Below, one piece after another: positions 2,105 to 10,858 of a DNA stretch of 10,858 bases. The stretch is from NCBI GenBank assembly GCA_900769095.1, contig CAAGFH010000130.1, forward strand, positions 1 to 10,858, given 5' to 3'. The notes under the pieces were generated by a model. The model saw only the letters and a list, made by a program, of their open reading frames with translations, ran no database searches and was not told the origin of the DNA. The translations under genes and the position numbers were made by a program. The DNA comes from Methanobacteriaceae archaeon. GTDB taxonomy: Archaea; Methanobacteriota; Methanobacteria; Methanobacteriales; Methanobacteriaceae. Position 1 is the stretch's first letter. Each line of letters starts with the position of its first letter.

Positions 2105-2123
2105 ATGTGTAGTTACTACACAT
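2105..2123. promoter_or_regulatory. Perfect 19-bp palindromic operator candidate 1 (mobB side)
   Basis: ATGTGTAGT-T-ACTACACAT is a perfect 9-1-9 inverted repeat, 66 bases upstream of the mobB start. AT-rich stretches that could act as TATA boxes for leftward transcription lie just downstream in the mobB direction (about 2086-2104). Its geometry and sequence match the palindrome at 2428-2446, so the same DNA-binding protein plausibly recognises both. Binding is inferred. Confidence 0.7.
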
Positions 2124-2144
2124 TTAGGATGACCAAAATAAATT

Positions 2145-2160
2145 ACATGATTTTTCATGT
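2145..2160. repeat. Short inverted repeat in the divergent region
   Basis: ACATGA and TCATGT form perfect 6-base arms around a TTTT loop. It is not of the ATGTGTA pattern. It could be a minor operator or may have arisen by chance in such AT-rich sequence. Confidence 0.3.
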
Positions 2161-2349
2161 TTTTTTCATACTTTTATGGAATATATTTATTACAAATTTT
2201 ACATAATTTTTACATTTTTTAATGTTATTAATAAATATACGTTCTTAATTTTATTATTTAAAGGATATTTGATTAATTCTAAAAAAATTAATTATTATAA
2301 ATTATTATTTAATTATTTTAAGGATTCTAAGAGATTTTATTAAAAAAAA

Positions 2350-2368
2350 TTGTGTAGTTATACCACAG
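2350..2368. promoter_or_regulatory. Degenerate operator candidate 2 (fwd upstream promoter)
   Basis: TTGTGTAGTTATACCACAG matches operator candidate 1 at 14 of 19 positions. The left half TGTGTAGT is intact and the right half keeps CACA. It ends directly against the TATA box at 2369, the place of the archaeal BRE, so a bound protein would interfere with or assist TFB/TBP there. It was found only by comparison with the two perfect copies. Confidence 0.5.
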
Positions 2369-2378
2369 TTATATATAA
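2369..2378 (+). promoter_or_regulatory. TATA box, upstream fwd promoter candidate
   Basis: TTATATATAA fits the archaeal TATA consensus. Transcription would be expected to begin about 25 bases downstream, near 2397-2403, giving a leader of about 55 bases before fwdH. It adjoins operator candidate 2. Confidence 0.5.
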
Positions 2379-2410
2379 GTATTGTGTCTTTAATCTAGTA
2401 GGTAACTATA

Positions 2411-2418
2411 TTTATATA
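2411..2418 (+). promoter_or_regulatory. TATA box, proximal fwd promoter candidate
   Basis: TTTATATA matches the archaeal TATA consensus exactly. The expected start site, about 22-27 bases downstream, falls at about 2436-2441, inside the perfect palindrome at 2428-2446 and about 18 bases before the preferred fwdH start. This makes it the likelier main promoter, and one that a protein on the palindrome could block. Confidence 0.6.
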
Positions 2419-2427
2419 GGTAAACAT

Positions 2428-2446
2428 ATGTGTAATCATTACACAT
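2428..2446. promoter_or_regulatory. Perfect 19-bp palindromic operator candidate 3 (fwdH proximal)
   Basis: ATGTGTAAT-C-ATTACACAT is a perfect 9-1-9 inverted repeat sharing the outer ATGTGTA...TACACAT arms of the site at 2105-2123. It lies over the predicted start site of the proximal TATA box and immediately before the fwdH ribosome binding site. This geometry suits a repressor, or an RNA hairpin in the leader of the longer transcript. The gene just downstream encodes a helix-turn-helix protein, so autoregulation is possible. Confidence 0.72.
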
Positions 2447-2907: not shown

Positions 2908-4005
2908 ATGATTAGAAATTTAAAAGAGGTTAAAGATAATAACTTTGACATTACAAGGTCTGCAGAAGAAGTCAGAAACTTGTCTTTCAATGACCATGTC
3001 TGTTTAGGTTGTGGGATTTGTGAATCCACTTGTCCTGTCGAAGCAATTACTGTAAAAGCTGTTGCTATCGATGCTCGTCACAGAATTTCCAACGACATCT
3101 ACTTCAGTGGACACGAAAAGATTGCTCAAAACTTCCAAGACGACTTTGATGCTCAAAGAGTAAGCATTGACGAAAGTAAATGTGTATTATGTGGTATGTG
3201 CAGTGGATTATGTCCTGTTGACGCATTAGTATTAACTATTGATGGCGTACCAATCAGAGAAATCGAAGCATATCCTCATTACAACGCTTTCTCAGAAATT
3301 GATGATGATGAATGTGTTTACTGTAAAAGATGTGAAATTGCATGTCCTCGTGACGCAATCGTTATCGACAGAGTTTTACCAGACCGTGCTGATTTAGTAA
3401 CTGGTGAAATCGATGTAAACGAAGATGACTGTATTTACTGTGGTGTATGTGAAGAATTATGTCCTGCAGAAGCTATCTACGTTGATCACGAAACTGGTAA
3501 AGAATCTATTGTTATCAACAAAGATGAATGTGTATACTGTCTCGTATGTAAAAAATCCTGTCCTACTAACGCTATCAAAGCTATTTGTAGAGCATGTAAC
3601 TACGGAGAGTACGACTTAAACCCTGCTAACGCAGTTGTTACTGGTAACTCTATTATCGACTCTGAACTCTGTGTATACTGTGGATGGTGTGAAGGCGTAT
3701 GTCCTACAGACGCTGCTAAAGTTAAAAAACCATTCAAAGGTTCTATTGAAGTCGACGATGACAAATGTCAAGCTTGTGGTGCTTGTGTAGATATCTGTCA
3801 ATGTAATGCTTTAGCATTCCCTGTATCTACCGCTCCAGGTTCCAGAATGGCACACGTTGTTGCTTACGGCGAATACTGTGTAAGTTGTAAAGCATGTGCA
3901 AATGCATGTCCTAACGATGCTATTACTGTAGTAAGAACTGAAGTTGACCACACTCCTATTAACTCCGCTACTTGGAAAGAAGCTTTAGATGCTATTAAAG
4001 ACTAG
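2908..4005 (+). CDS. fwdF: Formylmethanofuran dehydrogenase polyferredoxin subunit FwdF
   Basis: FwdF is the electron-wiring subunit of the cytoplasmic formylmethanofuran dehydrogenase complex. In the known FwdABCDFG structure it carries eight [4Fe-4S] clusters and bridges the enzyme units. All eight C-x2-C-x2-C-x3-C motifs are visible in the 365 residues, starting at C32, C92, C136, C175, C208, C255, C287 and C324. Seven end in CP; the seventh (287-297) ends CQC instead. An extra pair, C227-R-A-C230, lies between motifs 5 and 6. The ATG is one base after the fwdH stop, with GGAG at 2897-2900. After roughly the first 30 codons, usage shifts to C-ending codons (AAC, TAC, GAC), as expected of a very highly expressed gene. 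The assignment is firm. Confidence 0.95.
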   Translation: MIRNLKEVKDNNFDITRSAEEVRNLSFNDHVCLGCGICESTCPVEAITVKAVAIDARHRISNDIYFSGHEKIAQNFQDDFDAQRVSIDESKCVLCGMCSGLCPVDALVLTIDGVPIREIEAYPHYNAFSEIDDDECVYCKRCEIACPRDAIVIDRVLPDRADLVTGEIDVNEDDCIYCGVCEELCPAEAIYVDHETGKESIVINKDECVYCLVCKKSCPTNAIKAICRACNYGEYDLNPANAVVTGNSIIDSELCVYCGWCEGVCPTDAAKVKKPFKGSIEVDDDKCQACGACVDICQCNALAFPVSTAPGSRMAHVVAYGEYCVSCKACANACPNDAITVVRTEVDHTPINSATWKEALDAIKD

Positions 4006-4013
4006 GTGATTGG

Positions 4014-4244
<231 letters not shown>

Positions 4245-4257
4245 GGGGGATTATATA

Positions 4258-4827
4258 ATGCATTACGCTAATACTTATTTAGAAAAACCTGTAGTACCTG
4301 ATGTAAAAATTACTGGTGAAGGAACTACTGATGTTCTTAAATGTATGTTAAACACTGGATCTGACATCTACCAAGGTGCTTGTAAGAAAAGAGGATCCAC
4401 TTTAAAAGAAGAATATAAAAACGCTTCCGGTACTTGTTACATGGACCCTAGGGATATGGCTAAATTAGGTGTAAACAACTGGGACACCGTCCTTGTTAAA
4501 ACCGACTTTGGTGAAGTTGTTGTAAACTGTGCTGTATCTAGAGACGCACCTCACGAAGGTACTGTATTCATTTGTAAAGGTCCATGGGCTAACACTATTG
4601 TAAGCCACGATACCTACTGTTGTTCAGACCCTACTTACAAAGGTATTACTTGTACTGTAGAAAAAACTGATAGAAAAGTATTACTCATGGCTGACTTAAT
4701 GAGATGGGTATACAAAAAATACGTTGATGAAGAAGATGACGATGTTGTTGAAAACATGGATTCTTTAGGTGAATTACCTGTTTATCACGGACGTAAATGG
4801 GAGGAGTTGATTGATCATGACTTATGA
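4258..4827 (+). CDS. fwdD: Formylmethanofuran dehydrogenase subunit FwdD (pterin dinucleotide binding)
   Basis: FwdD supplies the molybdopterin-dinucleotide-binding beta-barrel domain that completes the FwdB active site. Residues about 27-137 are the core. Visible family features are the early segment [13 protein letters not shown], the [22 protein letters not shown] block, [12 protein letters not shown], and the strongly conserved [16 protein letters not shown] at 97-112. The 189-residue product exceeds the usual size of about 130. It has a leader of about 25 residues and an acidic, partly helical tail (138-189) containing DEEDDD. Cysteines are unusually frequent (29, 42, 60, 91, 106, 121, 122, 132). 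The ATG follows a strong GGGGGAT (4245-4251). The last codons overlap the fwdB start, suggesting translational coupling. Confidence 0.93.
4800..4806 (+). promoter_or_regulatory. Ribosome binding site for fwdB inside fwdD
   Basis: GGAGGAG lies within the fwdD coding sequence. It serves either the ATG at 4817 (10 bases on) or the in-frame TTG at 4811 (4 bases on). The ATG is preferred as the stronger codon at acceptable spacing. Confidence 0.6.
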
Positions 4828-6193
4828 ACCACCTGTAACTGATTATGATCACATTGTTGAAAACTGTACTTGTGCTTTCTGTGGTTGTAATTGTGATGAT
4901 TTAGATTACTTAGTTAAAGATAATCACGTTGTTGCTGTAAGACACGCATGCAGATTAGGAGCAAGTAAAATCATGGAAGATATGGACCAAAGATTACTTG
5001 TTCCAATGATTAGGGATGAAAACGGAGAACTTACTGAAGTTGACTGGGATACTGCTTTAGACAAAGCTGCAGAATACATTGCTAACTCTATCAGACCTGT
5101 ATTCTACGGTTGGTCTGAAACCTCAACTGAATGTATGAAAGAAGGTGTAGCATTAGGTGAATACATCGGTGCTGTATTAGATAACCAAGCTACTATCTGT
5201 CACGGTCCTTCTCTCCAAGCTGTACAAAACGCAGGTTACCCTATTCAAACCTTAGGGGAAGTTCAAAACAGAGCTGACATGATTGTTTACTCTGGAAGTA
5301 ACGCTATGAACTCTCACCCAAGACACTTGGCAAGATACGCTGCTTTCTGTCGTGGATACTTCAGACAAAGAGGAAGATTCGACAGAACTGTTGTTACTAT
5401 GGATCCTAAATTCTCAGATACTGCAAAATGTTCTGACAAATGGATTGGATTCGAACAAAACGGAGACTACGGTTTCTACAACGCTATCAGAGCTGTATTA
5501 AGAGGAAAAGAATTATACCAAGACGTAATTTCTGGAATTCCTAAAGAAGATATTTACGAATTAGCAGAAGAAATGAAAAACGCAGAATTTGGTGTACTCT
5601 TCTTCGGTTTAGGTTTAACTCACACTTTATCAAAACAAAGAAACATTGATATTGCTATTAAAATGATTCAAGACTTAAACAAATACAGTAAATGGGGACT
5701 TACTCCTATGAGAGGTCACTTTAACGTAAACGGATTCAACATCTTCATGGCATTTGAATGCGGATTCGCTTTCGGTGTAGACTACTGTAGAGGTTACCCA
5801 AGATACATGTTAGGTGAAACCAACACTATCGATTTATTAGTCAGAAAAGAACCTGACTGTTTCATGGTTATTGCAGCTGACCCAGGTGCTCACTTCCCTA
5901 ACGGAGCAAACCAACACTTAGCTGACATTCCAGTTATTCAAATCGATATTCACTGGGGTCCTTCCACCGAGCTTGCTGACGTAGTATTACCAGGTTCATT
6001 CATTGCTGTAGAATGTGCTGGTACCAGTTACCGTATGGATGGAGTTCCTATCTACATGAAAAAAGCTATTGACAAACCAGAAACTTGTCGTGACGACGAA
6101 TGGATTGTCCGTGAACTTAAAGAAAGAGTAATGAAACTCAGAGAAGAGCCAAACGTAGCTCCAAAATTTGTGCCAAATCCAAACGCACTCTAA
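4817..6193 (+). CDS. fwdB: Formylmethanofuran dehydrogenase catalytic subunit FwdB (W/Mo, CO2 reduction)
   Basis: FwdB is the molybdopterin oxidoreductase that reduces CO2 to formate at a tungsten or molybdenum bis-pyranopterin centre, resembling formate dehydrogenase. The 458-residue product opens with a [4Fe-4S] motif C19-x2-C22-x3-C26...C45. The metal ligand appears to be C128 in ATICHGPS, the position that is selenocysteine in some methanogens, for example one Methanopyrus enzyme. Here it is TGT (Cys), so no Sec machinery is implied. Other family features are [11 protein letters not shown] (about 165), [13 protein letters not shown] and the C-terminal [13 protein letters not shown]...VVLPG. 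The start overlaps fwdD by 11 bases. The tungsten or molybdenum form cannot be told from this sequence alone; 'Fwd' is used because of operon type. Confidence 0.94.
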
Positions 6194-6202
6194 GGTGATA
6201 TA

Positions 6203-7918
6203 ATGGAATATATTCTTAAAAATGGTATTGTCTACGACCCAGCTAACGAAATTAACGGTGAGAAAAAAGACGTTATGTTCAAAGATGGTATTATTGTAGA
6301 TGACGTATCTGCAGATGCTAAAGTCTTAGACGTTACCGATAAAATAGTCATGCCAGCAGGTATTGACCCTCACGCTCACGTTGCAGGTCCAAAATTAGTA
6401 GTTGGAAGATTATACAGACCTGAAGATTCCAGAAGAGGTGTTACTCAAAAAACTAAAGTATTAAGATCTGAATCTGGTTTCTCTATCCCAAGTTGTCCTG
6501 CAACTGGTTACAGATACTCAAGATTAGGTTACGGTACTGTTGTTGAAGCAGCTATGCCTCCTCTTGAAGCAAAACACACTCACGAAGAAATTGCAACTAT
6601 TCCACAATTAGACATCCCAGCTTTACCATTATTCGGTAACAACTGGTTTGTAATGGAATACGCAAAAGAAAACAACATTGAAGATATTGCAGCATTTGTA
6701 TCTGCATGGTTAAAAATCTCCAAAGGTTACGGAATTAAAATCGTAAACCCATGTGGAAGTGAAGCATGGGGTTGGGGTATGAACGTACACGGTGTTAACG
6801 ATAAAGCACCTTACTTCGACGTAACTTCTAAAGAAGTTGTAATCGCTTTAGCAAAAGCTAACGAAATGTTAAACTTACCTCACTCTATTCACATTCACCC
6901 TAACGATTTAGGACACCCTGGTAACGTTCCAACAACCATTGAAACTATGGATGCTGTTAAAAACGTTAAAAAAGGTTCTAAAGCAGCTGAAATCAGAGAC
7001 CAAATTATGCACATCTGTCACTTACAATTCCACGCATACACTGGAAACAGTTGGAAAGATGCTGCATCTGGTGCTGAAGAACTTGCTAAATACATTAACA
7101 GTCACGACCACGTTACTTGTGATGTAGGACAAGTTACTTTCGATGAAACCACTACAATGACTGCAGACGCTCCTATGGAATACGACTTATTCAAATTATC
7201 TGGTTTAAAATGGACCAACAAAGATATTGAATGTGAAACTGCAGCTGGTATCATCCCATGTATCTACTCTCCTAAAAACCCTGTTAACACTTTACAATGG
7301 GCTATTGGTCTTGAATTGTTCTTACAAATCGACGACCCATGGAAAGTATGTATGACTACTGACCACCCTAACGCAGGTCCTTTCACTAGATATCCTAGAA
7401 TCATCTCTTGGTTAATGAGTAACCAAAGAAGAATGGAAATGATCGAAAACAGAGAAGTTCACAAATGGGCAGAAAAAAGAACTACCCTTGCAACTCTCGA
7501 CAGAGAATACGATTTCTACGATATTGCAACTATTACCAGATCTGCTCCTGCTAAAATCTACGGATTCACCGACAGAGGTGCACTTACTCCTGGTTACAGA
7601 GCAGACATTGCAGTATACGACATAAATCCTAATGACATTGACCCATCCAGACAAGCTGCTGATATTGAAAAAGGTTTCGATATTGCTGAATACACTATTA
7701 AAGATGGTCAAATCTTAGTAAAAGACAAAGAAATTGTAAAAGTTAAAGAAAGTCAAAACATCTGGGTTAACGTAAAAGGATGGGAACAAAACGAGCAAAA
7801 AGTTATCGACAACATTATGCCGTTCTTCACCCAATACTACTCAGTCAAATGGGAAAACTACCCTGTACATGACCACTACGTATCCAACCCAATTCAAATA
7901 GATGTTGATGGTAAATAG
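6203..7918 (+). CDS. fwdA: Formylmethanofuran dehydrogenase subunit FwdA (dinuclear metal amidohydrolase)
   Basis: FwdA condenses formate, delivered by an internal tunnel from FwdB, with methanofuran to give formyl-methanofuran. It belongs to the amidohydrolase superfamily. Visible metal-site features in the 571 residues are H57-x-H59 in [13 protein letters not shown]179 in GYGIKIVNP (matching the carboxylated lysine known in this family), H230/H232 in [15 protein letters not shown], the H270/H273 region, and D387 in MTTDHPN. The C-terminal beta-domain carries [15 protein letters not shown] (459-473), typical of amidohydrolases. The ATG follows AAGGTGAT, which overlaps the fwdB stop. Length and motifs are normal and I see no frameshift. 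Confidence 0.96.
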
Positions 7919-7923
7919 AGGTG
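7919..7923 (+). promoter_or_regulatory. Ribosome binding site implying a TTG start for fwdC
   Basis: AGGTG follows directly after the fwdA stop. With a six-base spacer it points to the TTG at 7930. The in-frame GTG at 7921 is itself part of this AGGTG and has no site of its own. Confidence 0.65.
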
Positions 7924-7929
7924 TTTAAT

Positions 7930-8784
<855 letters not shown>

Positions 8785-8796
<12 letters not shown>

Positions 8797-8827: not shown

Positions 8828-8832
8828 AGGTG
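8828..8832 (+). promoter_or_regulatory. Ribosome binding site deciding the start of the first DUF2097-like gene
   Basis: AGGTG lies six bases before the ATG at 8839. The in-frame GTG at 8830 is part of this site, so the ATG is preferred. Confidence 0.65.
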
Positions 8833-8838
8833 TTTAGA

Positions 8839-9129
8839 ATGATTGAAGAAGTTGAAATGAGTTTTGATGAAGCACTTGAATATGTTAAAACCAAAGTTAA
8901 TGTTGGTGATGTTTTAGAACTTTCCTACAATCGTATTTTTGCTCCTGGTGAAGTTTTAGGATTCACTGAAGAAGATGATATGACTGGTGAAGGTTTTAGA
9001 GTTAGTCTTCAATTAAACGGTGAAATTTTAAATCAATCTATCGAAATCGATTTCGATGAAATTAAAGATGATTTAATTGAAATGCGTCATATTACTGACG
9101 ATAAAGAACTTGTTGTAGAAATTTTGTAA
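8839..9129 (+). CDS. Small acidic DUF2097-like methanogen protein, copy 1
   Basis: The 96-residue, strongly acidic soluble protein has no signal peptide or membrane segment. It resembles the DUF2097 family as I recall it, a family of unknown function found in methanogens. The clearest landmark is LELSYNRIFAPGEVLGF (about 29-45), a beta strand and turn; a helix precedes it (SFDEALEYVKTKV) and a second segment IEIDFDEIKDDLIEM follows. It is paralogous to the gene at 9255, also 96 residues. It lies 42 bases after fwdC, past the T-rich terminator, with no obvious TATA box of its own. It may be expressed by readthrough from fwd. I cannot assign a function; the gene itself is well supported by its start signal, codon pattern and paralog. 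Confidence 0.85.
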   Translation: MIEEVEMSFDEALEYVKTKVNVGDVLELSYNRIFAPGEVLGFTEEDDMTGEGFRVSLQLNGEILNQSIEIDFDEIKDDLIEMRHITDDKELVVEIL

Positions 9130-9216: not shown

Positions 9217-9254
9217 GATAACTACTATATTATAGTTTACAAGGGTTGATTATC

Positions 9255-9545
9255 ATGAAAAATTTAGAATTAACAACAAACGACGCTGTAAGTTATTTAA
9301 AAGAAAATGTTAAAATTCATGATAGAATTGAAATTTCATATAATAGAATTTTCGCAGAAGGAGAAATCCTAAATATGGATTTTTCTGAATACTTTGGAAA
9401 ACCAGGTTTTAAAATGTTAGTCTCTCTTGACGAAAGTCGTTTGGGGGCTACTGTTGAAATTGATATTTTTGAAGTTGCGGATGATATAATCGAATTTACT
9501 CATTATCCTAAAAATGGTGAGGAAGTGGATGTGACTGTAAGTTAA
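9255..9545 (+). CDS. Small acidic DUF2097-like methanogen protein, copy 2
   Basis: This 96-residue soluble acidic protein is paralogous to the one at 8839. Both have an N-terminal helix (DAVSYLKENV), then IEISYNRIFAEGEILNM around residues 25-41, then VEIDIFEVADDIIEF. Identity outside the SYNRIFA-x-GE-x-L core is limited, so the duplication is old. It has its own promoter and a palindrome, unlike copy 1. The ATG at 9255 is preferred over the in-frame TTG at 9246, which directly abuts the ribosome binding site. The stop is immediately adjacent to the stop of the convergent nrpR-like gene. Codon use is the ordinary T/A-ending type, so it is not in the high-expression class of fwd. Function is unknown. 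Confidence 0.83.
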   Translation: MKNLELTTNDAVSYLKENVKIHDRIEISYNRIFAEGEILNMDFSEYFGKPGFKMLVSLDESRLGATVEIDIFEVADDIIEFTHYPKNGEEVDVTVS

Positions 9546-10858
9546 TTATAGTCTATCCATCTTTTCGAAAGGTAATAATTTTTCAATAGCTTTAACCTTA
9601 ACAGCTATTCCTTTTTCTTTAATTGCAGCGATGGAATTTAAACCACTGCCTGTAACAATACCGAAGTTATAATTGTTTGCTTTTGCGTTGTATGTAACTT
9701 CTCTTGGCTTTCCAATTTTGTATATTGGGAATCCTATATTGTTTAAAATATCTAAAATATGGACACTTTGTTCTCTTGATATATATGGTATTTCTTTAAA
9801 ACTAGCAAGTATTTTACTATGTCCATTATTATTAGTTATAGATGTCATATTTTTAGCTAGGAATATCATATGTGGGTCTTCTGTGGACCCGTTGTATGAA
9901 ATTAAGTCAATGAATAATGGAGGCTCTGTGAGTTCAAGTAATCCACCATATTTTGGGTTACTCATAATTCCATTATCAATCAAAATTCCATCAATACTTA
10001 AACTGCAGATTGTAGCAAGACCAATCATTGAATCATTACTTGGATGTTCAACTAATTTATAGTATGGACTAATGAATTTAGGTTTGTCATTGTATGTTTC
10101 TTCCATTATATCCAAAGCCTTGTCAATCTTGTCTTTGTCCATAAATGAAACATTTGTAATGATATTTCCTTTTCTTTTTTCAATATCAAAATCAACTTGC
10201 TGGATTAAGTTCCATGTTTTTGAAAGTAAAAATGCAATGTTTTGTGGTGGTGTACTTTTTACTTGTGATAATACAGGATTGATTCTTGAAGCTATTGGAG
10301 ATAAAGTTTTGAAATCTTTAATCTCTTCAGCAATTTTAATTTCAATATCCTGATTTTCTTCTTGCACTGCACAAAATGGAGTAATTCCACCTACAACAGA
10401 GATTCCAACCATTCCTTCAGGTACTGGAACTCCTAAAAGATTCTTTCCTTCTTCTGAAATAGCTATTATTCCACCAATTCCAATTTTTTCTAGTTTATTG
10501 ATTATATCAATAGCATTTTGGCGGCCAATTCCTGGAATTAATCTGAAGTTTGCAGGAATAATTCCTTCCCCATTTTCAATTACATCCATTACTGATGTAA
10601 ATCCTTTTGCTGAGAATGCTTCAAGCGGGGATACTGAAGTCTTTTTGTATGAAATTAATTCGGTAAATCCAACAGGTTCATTATCTTCAATTTTTAGAAG
10701 TCCACCATATTGTGGTTGTGATGCAATTCCTTCATTAAGCAACACTCCGTCTACTGTTGTTCCACATAAAGTTGTTACTTCTATTTTGTTGTCATTACCA
10801 GTATGATTTAAATTAACGTAAGGGCTAACAGAAAGGCCATGTTCAATAACTTTTTTAA
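9546..10858 (-). CDS. nrpR: NrpR-type nitrogen regulator, partial (N-terminus beyond the window)
   Basis: NrpR represses nitrogen assimilation and fixation genes in methanogens and is released by 2-oxoglutarate. The visible 436 codons hold two homologous NrpR (DUF128) domains. Matching landmarks are SPYVNLNH...VDGVLLNEGIASQPQYGGLLKI in the first and SPYYKLVEH...IDGILIDNGIMSNPKYGGLLEL in the second, and GISVVGGITPFCAVQE against GIVTGSGLNSIAAIKE. The frame stays open to the right edge with good family sequence upstream of an internal GTG at 10745, so that GTG is not the start. The Methanococcus protein has about 540 residues, so roughly 100 residues, including the expected winged helix-turn-helix, lie outside the window. 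It converges on the DUF2097-like gene with no gap. Assignment is good; DNA-binding ability cannot be judged here. Confidence 0.88.
   Translation of the reverse strand, partial: KKVIEHGLSVSPYVNLNHTGNDNKIEVTTLCGTTVDGVLLNEGIASQPQYGGLLKIEDNEPVGFTELISYKKTSVSPLEAFSAKGFTSVMDVIENGEGIIPANFRLIPGIGRQNAIDIINKLEKIGIGGIIAISEEGKNLLGVPVPEGMVGISVVGGITPFCAVQEENQDIEIKIAEEIKDFKTLSPIASRINPVLSQVKSTPPQNIAFLLSKTWNLIQQVDFDIEKRKGNIITNVSFMDKDKIDKALDIMEETYNDKPKFISPYYKLVEHPSNDSMIGLATICSLSIDGILIDNGIMSNPKYGGLLELTEPPLFIDLISYNGSTEDPHMIFLAKNMTSITNNNGHSKILASFKEIPYISREQSVHILDILNNIGFPIYKIGKPREVTYNAKANNYNFGIVTGSGLNSIAAIKEKGIAVKVKAIEKLLPFEKMDRL

Follow-up and report, generated by a model that had tools for sequence, protein, structure and literature searches.

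The intergenic region ahead of the fwd (formylmethanofuran dehydrogenase) operon carries palindromic sites of the pattern ATGTGTA-N5-TACACAT that, judged by comparative sequence analysis, are conserved and specific operators of the operon, common to mobB-moaA in many Methanobrevibacter-type genomes. We consider it fairly probable that these palindromes are the operators of an autoregulatory circuit of fwd, of either sign, run by FwdH, the HTH-ferredoxin product of the first fwd gene. This likely regulator was overlooked in a preliminary description of the same DNA, which had proposed a regulon operator linking tungsten/molybdenum cofactor synthesis to the enzyme that uses it.

Palindromes in the mobB-fwdH intergenic region

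We analyzed a window of 10,858 bases (the whole stretch of DNA under study), in which the fwd operon lies on the plus strand. The first gene, fwdH (2457–2906), is that of the proposed regulator and encodes an N-terminal HTH domain (residues ∼1–60) and a C-terminal 2[4Fe-4S] ferredoxin (residues ∼96–149). Its open reading frame could start at 2445; the conserved start, MPKH, is at 2457 and is preceded by a GGTGGT ribosome-binding site. The second gene, fwdF (2908–4005, plus strand), encodes a polyferredoxin scoring above the NCBIfam FwdF cut-off. It is followed by fwdG, fwdD, fwdB, fwdA, and fwdC (4014–8796, plus strand), assigned from family models and place in the operon: FwdB, FwdA, and FwdC exceeded the cut-offs of TIGR03129, TIGR03121, and TIGR03122, FwdD matched the FwdD model with a score below the cut-off, and fwdG was named from its 4Fe-4S motifs and operon place. 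The fwd gene order has been given as fwdHFGDACB (PMC3087415). On the minus strand, mobB (1005–2039; PF03205, TIGR00176) is divergent from fwdH, with moaA (65–1000; TIGR02668, above cut-off) downstream from it. Two tandem DUF2097 paralogs (8830–9129 and 9246–9545) lie 3′ of the operon, and an NrpR-domain protein of the nitrogen regulator family (9546–10,856, minus strand) is found at the window end. Positions 1–17 (gtgtgctcttccgatct) look like the terminal part of an Illumina sequencing adapter, which makes an assembly artefact the probable origin of this contig end.

The mobB-fwdH intergenic region is 417 bp long, with 18% GC. The preliminary description had reported here two perfect 9-1-9 palindromes with identical outer seven bases and a third copy agreeing with the first at 14 of 19 positions; both statements were borne out. 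The perfect copies are the predicted distal operator, O-dist (ATGTGTAGTTACTACACAT; 2105–2123), and the predicted proximal operator, O-prox (ATGTGTAATCATTACACAT; 2428–2446), and there are no other perfect 9-1-9 palindromes in the window. The third, the predicted middle operator O-mid (TTGTGTAGTTATACCACAG; 2350–2368), is an imperfect palindrome; none of the three is assigned a strand. O-dist, which is shared with mobB, is at −352 relative to the start of fwdH, and 66 bp separate it from the mobB start codon. In 5000 dinucleotide shuffles of the intergenic region, at least one perfect 9-1-9 palindrome arose in 140, at least two in two, and two with common outer seven bases in none. Scanned over the whole window with up to three mismatches, the common pattern of the perfect copies gave two matches versus 0.19 expected, a count reached in two of 200 shuffles.

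Beside O-dist, and sharing its last base, is an imperfect inverted repeat, TTTAGG-N4-CCAAAA (2123–2138, no strand), which reads TTTAGG..CCTAAA in some relatives. The repeat is conserved across the 32 Methanobrevibacter-type regions that we selected and aligned, is present in mobB-side sequences, and is perhaps the site for a different regulator.

Conservation of the sites across the class

We compared the regions upstream of fwdH at 111 loci from 109 genomes, with two loci each from G048 and G051, the window used in place of G001, and the set defined without G035 (fwdH at a contig end) and G053. Sites were scored at up to three mismatches to ATGTGTA-N5-TACACAT, against random windows of equal width from the same sequences; distal-site counts omit loci cut by contig ends and use 107 or 105 of the 111. 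Three recurrent site classes emerged, at about −29, −107, and −352 relative to the fwdH start. The proximal site was matched in 78 of 111 loci (0.2% of random windows) and the distal site in 65 of 107 (1.0%); the middle site is often weak, with just 69 of 111 loci within three mismatches (0.3% of random windows). In 110 of the 111 regions, the 700 bp next to fwdH held at least one site, the one exception being a Methanothermus-type locus with degenerate sites only (L130, from a genome presumably close to Methanothermus fervidus). A proximal or middle site is present in 16 of the 17 genera having full-length fwdH, and the middle-to-proximal spacing was 77–79 bp in all 42 loci with both sites. 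In G053, outside the set, the proximal, middle, and distal sites had one, four, and zero mismatches.

Within an alignment of 32 of the 56 Methanobrevibacter-type (g1) loci, picked for a common gap length, the main conserved islands fell at about 2105–2136 and 2351–2446, with shorter runs near 2160–2175; the palindromes stand out as islands of conservation in an AT-rich intergenic region. Individual sites have been lost in places. The proximal site is missing from 13 of 14 g9 loci, and in L049 and L050 (presumably an M. smithii-like genome and its relative) both near sites are degenerate, with five and six mismatches, leaving the distal site alone near-perfect. At L061 (G075), the fwdH match begins at residue 31, and the gene start is different or broken there. 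The preliminary description had staked its operator on conservation in orthologous mobB-fwdH intergenic regions and on a nonrandom genomic distribution. We found the first, as set out above, and a distribution far from random in the searches below, so the operator withstood the tests that the description had set for itself.

A single locus rather than a regulon

Exact 19-mers were found in 71 of 138 family genomes, versus none of 138 for a backward control pattern. All 75 exact matches listed sit at the fwd locus; base composition predicts ∼0.03 matches per genome. Seventy of them are within 700 bp upstream of fwdH, four are 2.0–2.3 kb upstream with an extra gene between mobB and fwdH, and the last lies at a contig end in sequence 86.5% identical over 468 nt to an fwdH upstream region. 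This placement of every listed exact match points to a single-locus switch rather than a scattered Mo/W regulon, and on this point the earlier proposal is not supported. As far as our searches reach, the operator would be a switch of the fwd locus, common to mobB-moaA where that pair is divergent. In four Methanobrevibacter-type loci (L143, L144, L145, and L146), ∼2 kb separate mobB from fwdH, and each gene has a palindrome copy nearby; in L143 and L145, the two whose open reading frames were read, a polyferredoxin gene lies between.

A looser search of 15 genomes, tolerating two mismatches at most, yielded 51 matches, of which 18 were at fwd and 33 elsewhere; the controls gave 35. Two related genomes stood apart, with eight of nine such matches away from fwd in G043 (which we take to be close to M. 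smithii) and six of seven in G038, against zero in the controls of both; in other genomes, one to three matches lay away from fwd, including one at G044:579345 that has a single mismatch. In G001, the nearest genome, TGTGTA-N5-TACACA occurred exactly at two places, both in the mobB-fwd region, and with one mismatch at two further places versus seven in the control. G086 has two exact 19-mer matches, outside the 75 listed places, and no FwdH match. We rejected a dispersed Mo/W regulon on these whole-genome pattern searches, in which non-fwd matches were at control level overall, G038 and G043 excepted. Among IMG/VR viral contigs there was one exact 19-mer (L270:4851–4869), without FwdH, which we took as chance; by eye, this copy adjoins phage-type and structural-type genes. 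A plasmid search with the intergenic region returned no match.

The distal site and mobB-moaA

Of the 54 loci with divergent mobB, 38 retain an intact TGTGT-N7-ACACA core no more than 130 nt from the start of mobB, and in 34 of these 38 the O-dist core was 74–89 nt ahead of that start. A single site serves as the mobB-side copy and as the fwd −352 site in most g1 loci. Seven divergent loci with a gap of ∼600 bp have two copies, one fixed relative to fwdH (−354 to −357) and one fixed relative to mobB (74–82 nt before its ATG). Nine others have wider gaps (679–2287), and in eight of these the 130 nt next to mobB contain no perfect core. The connection with cofactor synthesis that the preliminary description had drawn therefore stands for the region common to mobB-moaA and fwd, and most of the widest-gap loci speak against it. 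The distal site thus belongs with fwd and, in many divergent loci, with mobB as well.

Where mobB-moaA is co-directional or absent from the fetched stretch, the middle or proximal site persists, and the distal site persists in part of such loci. This retention without divergent mobB-moaA marks the operator as primarily an fwd element. In g9, mobB-moaA is co-directional with fwd where found, and distal sites near −411 and −387 are present in 11 of 12 loci. Other upstream genes were recognized by eye in L071 and L073, with the site retained, and a divergent moeA-like gene, also by eye, in L077. In a genus-by-genus count, the distal site was not seen in g8, g19, and g20 (Methanothermobacter-type) and other genera.

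The distal-to-middle distance was 244–248 bp in 42 loci, 250 bp in two, and 254–260 bp in 12 (56 loci in all), which hints at clusters one helical turn apart. Looping of DNA between O-dist and the promoter sites is a suggestion that we put forward tentatively, since 45 of these 56 loci come from one genus.

Operator positions at the promoters

Two copies had been described as lying against the two fwd TATA boxes. This is literally so for O-mid, which directly abuts TATA box 1 (TTATATATAAG; 2369–2379, plus strand), and needs adjustment for O-prox, which starts nine bases past the predicted TATA box 2 (TTTATATA; 2411–2418, plus strand, called from sequence). TATA box 2 is conserved in the 32-region alignment and weaker in other genera. 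A TATA-like hexamer follows the middle site by 0–5 nt in 110 of 111 loci, versus 11.7% of random upstream positions, and a strict TATATA lies within 12 nt of it in 100 of 111, versus 0.8% at random. On the minus strand, a by-eye assignment gives a putative mobB TATA element, TTAATTAATAC (2077–2087), which recurs in many mobB-side sequences.

The usual archaeal TATA-to-start distance is ∼25 nt. This places the predicted start of promoter 1 at about 2398 and that of promoter 2 at about 2438; the latter position is inside the O-prox palindrome, whose center is 2437. Because nine bases separate it from TTTATATA, O-prox would lie over the expected promoter 2 start, immediately 5′ of the ribosome-binding site. 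With O-mid at TATA box 1 and O-prox over this start, occupancy should block both promoters.

These positions bear on the sign of the proposed circuit. FwdH might instead activate, acting at O-mid on fwd and at O-dist on mobB from upstream of a TATA box and recruiting TBP/TFB. The placement of O-mid immediately 5′ of TATA box 1 in 110 of 111 loci would suit an activator, and so would the position of O-dist, which in 34 of 54 divergent loci is 74–89 nt ahead of the mobB start. Against this, O-mid leaves 0–5 nt for the BRE, and O-prox is at or after the predicted start points; operators against the BRE, or at or after the start, are typical of repressors. We regard activation, which falls within the autoregulatory reading, as unlikely though a serious contender, and if FwdH binds these sites, we lean toward repression.

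FwdH as the candidate regulator

FwdH likely binds the palindromes, in our judgment from its domains, its conservation, and its genomic position. The protein matched Pfam HTH_3 (PF01381; 25.5 bits vs. a cut-off of 23) and Fer4 above its cut-off, and structure models had a mean pLDDT of 93.8 for the whole protein and 91.5 for the HTH part. It has eight invariant cysteines and two 4Fe-4S motifs, and the fwdF start lies directly 3′ of fwdH in 108 of 111 loci. Over the 111 loci, the recognition helix (residues 34–46) is the most conserved part of FwdH, with a mean entropy of 0.18 bits, compared with 0.66 for residues 26–55, 1.61 for the linker, and 0.91 for the ferredoxin. A palindromic site at the gene's own promoter region, as known from HTH_3/XRE-like regulators, was found in 110 of 111 loci.

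The family matches of FwdH comprised 14 Pfam families of HTH, 4Fe-4S, LdpA Fe-S, and sigma-70 region 4 types. Neither among these 14 nor among the best 25 of 45 NCBIfam matches were there FNR, Rrf2, MerR, or WhiB families, and the 14 Pfam families included neither an oxyanion-binding TOBE/MOP domain nor TFX_C (PF14601). In a profile search of the PDB, every match among the best 60 of 241 sequences was confined to the ferredoxin half; chains of FwdF and FwdG from solved structures of Fwd complexes were among these 60, and FwdH was not. A fold search with the whole model was likewise dominated by the ferredoxin part, and weak sequence and fold matches were found to lambda cI and C proteins. We scanned for relatives with two word patterns in one genome per species (84,980 species). 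Among the 80 of 228 relatives listed, all matches over residues 1–149 were from Methanobrevibacter and other Methanobacteriaceae-type genomes. HTH-ferredoxin relatives in Methanomethylicota were set aside, as the two of five matches that were opened (L205 and L226) were, by eye, polyferredoxins without an HTH.

Variation within the recognition helix gave two further observations. Operator position 7 covaries with residue 34, being mostly A in loci with D34 and mostly G in loci with N34. The association is clear at the proximal site (A in 119 of 144 half-sites of D34 loci; G in 25 of 28 of N34 loci) and weaker at the middle site (109 of 166 and 15 of 28), and it tracks clades and G+C content. 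All 13 loci with S45 in place of R45 keep a distal site with zero or one mismatch, so R45 is dispensable for retention of the site.

Genomes lacking FwdH offer a further comparison. All 20 Methanosphaera-type (g12) genomes lack both the exact motif and a full-length FwdH match, and FwdD is present in 19 of them. In the loci of these 19, fwdG-D-B-A was found, and ATGTGTA-N5-TACACAT had no match there at up to two mismatches; in these loci (L230–L248), fwdG is the most upstream fwd gene, and the fetched stretch held no fwdH or fwdF match. Methanosphaera counts as one loss event, and co-absence therefore does not single out FwdH among the proteins lost. A supposed FwdH remnant in G123 (Methanosphaera-type) proved to be a weak site near an ordinary ferredoxin of 62 residues and hence not a remnant. 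Outside Methanosphaera are 20 of the 40 family genomes without a FwdH match. We sought FwdA in all 20: It gave no match in 15, matched in truncated form in four, and in one started 105 bases from the contig start. With FwdA unmatched, truncated, or near a contig start throughout, no intact counterexample was seen.

Could the sites instead be operators of an unlinked factor, such as a ModE/TunR-like metal sensor or another archaeal regulator, while FwdH carries electrons and its HTH is vestigial or directed at some other target? Neither adjacency nor a single co-loss is enough to identify the binder, and that FwdH binds is something we infer. The molybdopterin-gene neighbors would fit such a factor as well, namely, mobB-moaA, the moeA-like open reading frame in L077 (by eye), and FdhA-like open reading frames in L135 and L140 (by eye from translations). 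A metal sensor, however, should also have sites at genes for transport and for other steps of cofactor supply, and all 75 listed exact matches are at the fwd locus; moreover, the strongest conservation within FwdH is in its recognition helix. We rejected Tfx as the binder in Methanobrevibacter-type genomes: A search of 17 genomes detected TFX_C in four, none of them among the seven fwdH-bearing Methanobacteriaceae genomes tested. An unlinked factor and an electron-carrying FwdH, taken jointly, are in our estimate improbable, and we favor FwdH.

RNA structure or chance

We think it very unlikely that O-prox is an RNA hairpin in the leader and O-dist a terminator. O-prox does lie immediately 5′ of the ribosome-binding site, and O-dist is terminator-like by score on the minus strand. 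Yet O-dist is upstream of mobB, not downstream, O-mid is upstream of a TATA box, and no Rfam family matched in the window. As for pairing, the right half ACACA is retained in 109 of 111 loci and a perfect in-register left half in 51, and at least seven of nine pairs are kept in 67 of 109. A chance origin in AT-rich DNA, where shuffles of the region do yield at least one perfect palindrome in 140 of 5000 cases, is refuted by the clustering of the motif at one locus and by its conservation, in sequence as well as position, throughout the class, and we give it practically no weight.

The proposed circuit

In the autoregulatory circuit that we propose, FwdH would occupy ATGTGTA-N5-TACACAT as a dimer, both at O-mid, next to the BRE/TATA of promoter 1, and at O-prox, over the promoter 2 start, so that both promoters would be shut. 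O-dist, usually ∼246 or 257 bp upstream of O-mid, might assist by looping and would also control mobB-moaA where that pair is divergent. The state of the ferredoxin clusters would set DNA binding by FwdH. We observed the sites and their fixed positions, the clustering of the motif at one locus, and the domain make-up of FwdH; that the ferredoxin clusters sense redox, Fe-S, or metal state is conceivable, and we advance it with reserve. A broader and more speculative proposal, of which the DNA loop is no part, is that FwdH, annotated as subunit H of the tungsten formylmethanofuran dehydrogenase, could be a ferredoxin-type transcription factor. With two [4Fe-4S] clusters it would sense low-potential electron or Fe-S supply and set transcription of the very enzyme that spends such electrons in the first step of methanogenesis, plus the cofactor genes sharing the region; this would apply to nearly all Methanobacteria, Methanosphaera excepted. 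The tungsten enzyme has been described as constitutive (PMC3087415), which argues against strong metal regulation; regulation may be modest or respond to another signal. In searches of open-access literature, we found no description of the operator or of FwdH as a regulator.

Several known systems resemble parts of this circuit. Tfx is a DNA-binding protein that is encoded beside a formylmethanofuran dehydrogenase operon and binds near its promoter (PMC3087415). As with FwdH, the regulator gene of Tfx/fmdECB in Methanothermobacter adjoins a formylmethanofuran dehydrogenase operon, whereas Tfx belongs to the TFX_C family and targets the molybdenum operon fmd. XRE/Cro-CI autoregulators, such as lambda cI and restriction-modification controllers, have palindromic operators at their own promoter, several per region. 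FwdH shares with them the HTH_3 domain and the several palindromes and differs in that a C-terminal 2[4Fe-4S] ferredoxin replaces the dimerization/protease domain and that the promoter is archaeal. FNR, IscR, SoxR, and WhiB each sense through a single dedicated cluster, carried by a Crp, Rrf2, MerR, or WhiB fold; FwdH likewise joins a DNA-binding domain to Fe-S cluster ligands, but has a complete 2[4Fe-4S] ferredoxin and is encoded by the first gene of the operon that it putatively controls. Finally, ModE/TunR control Mo/W enzymes and transport through palindromic operators; unlike them, FwdH is without an oxyanion-binding domain, and none of the listed exact sites lies away from fwd.

Formylmethanofuran dehydrogenase catalyzes the first step of CO2 methanogenesis, and to our knowledge, the control of its level in gut and rumen methanogens is little understood. 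If the proposed circuit is correct, a self-regulating, ferredoxin-fused DNA-binding protein would be an unusual kind of Fe-S regulator, and the reading of FwdH as an enzyme subunit would change. The circuit would also provide a concrete cis-trans pair, open to experimental test, in a group for which few operators are known.
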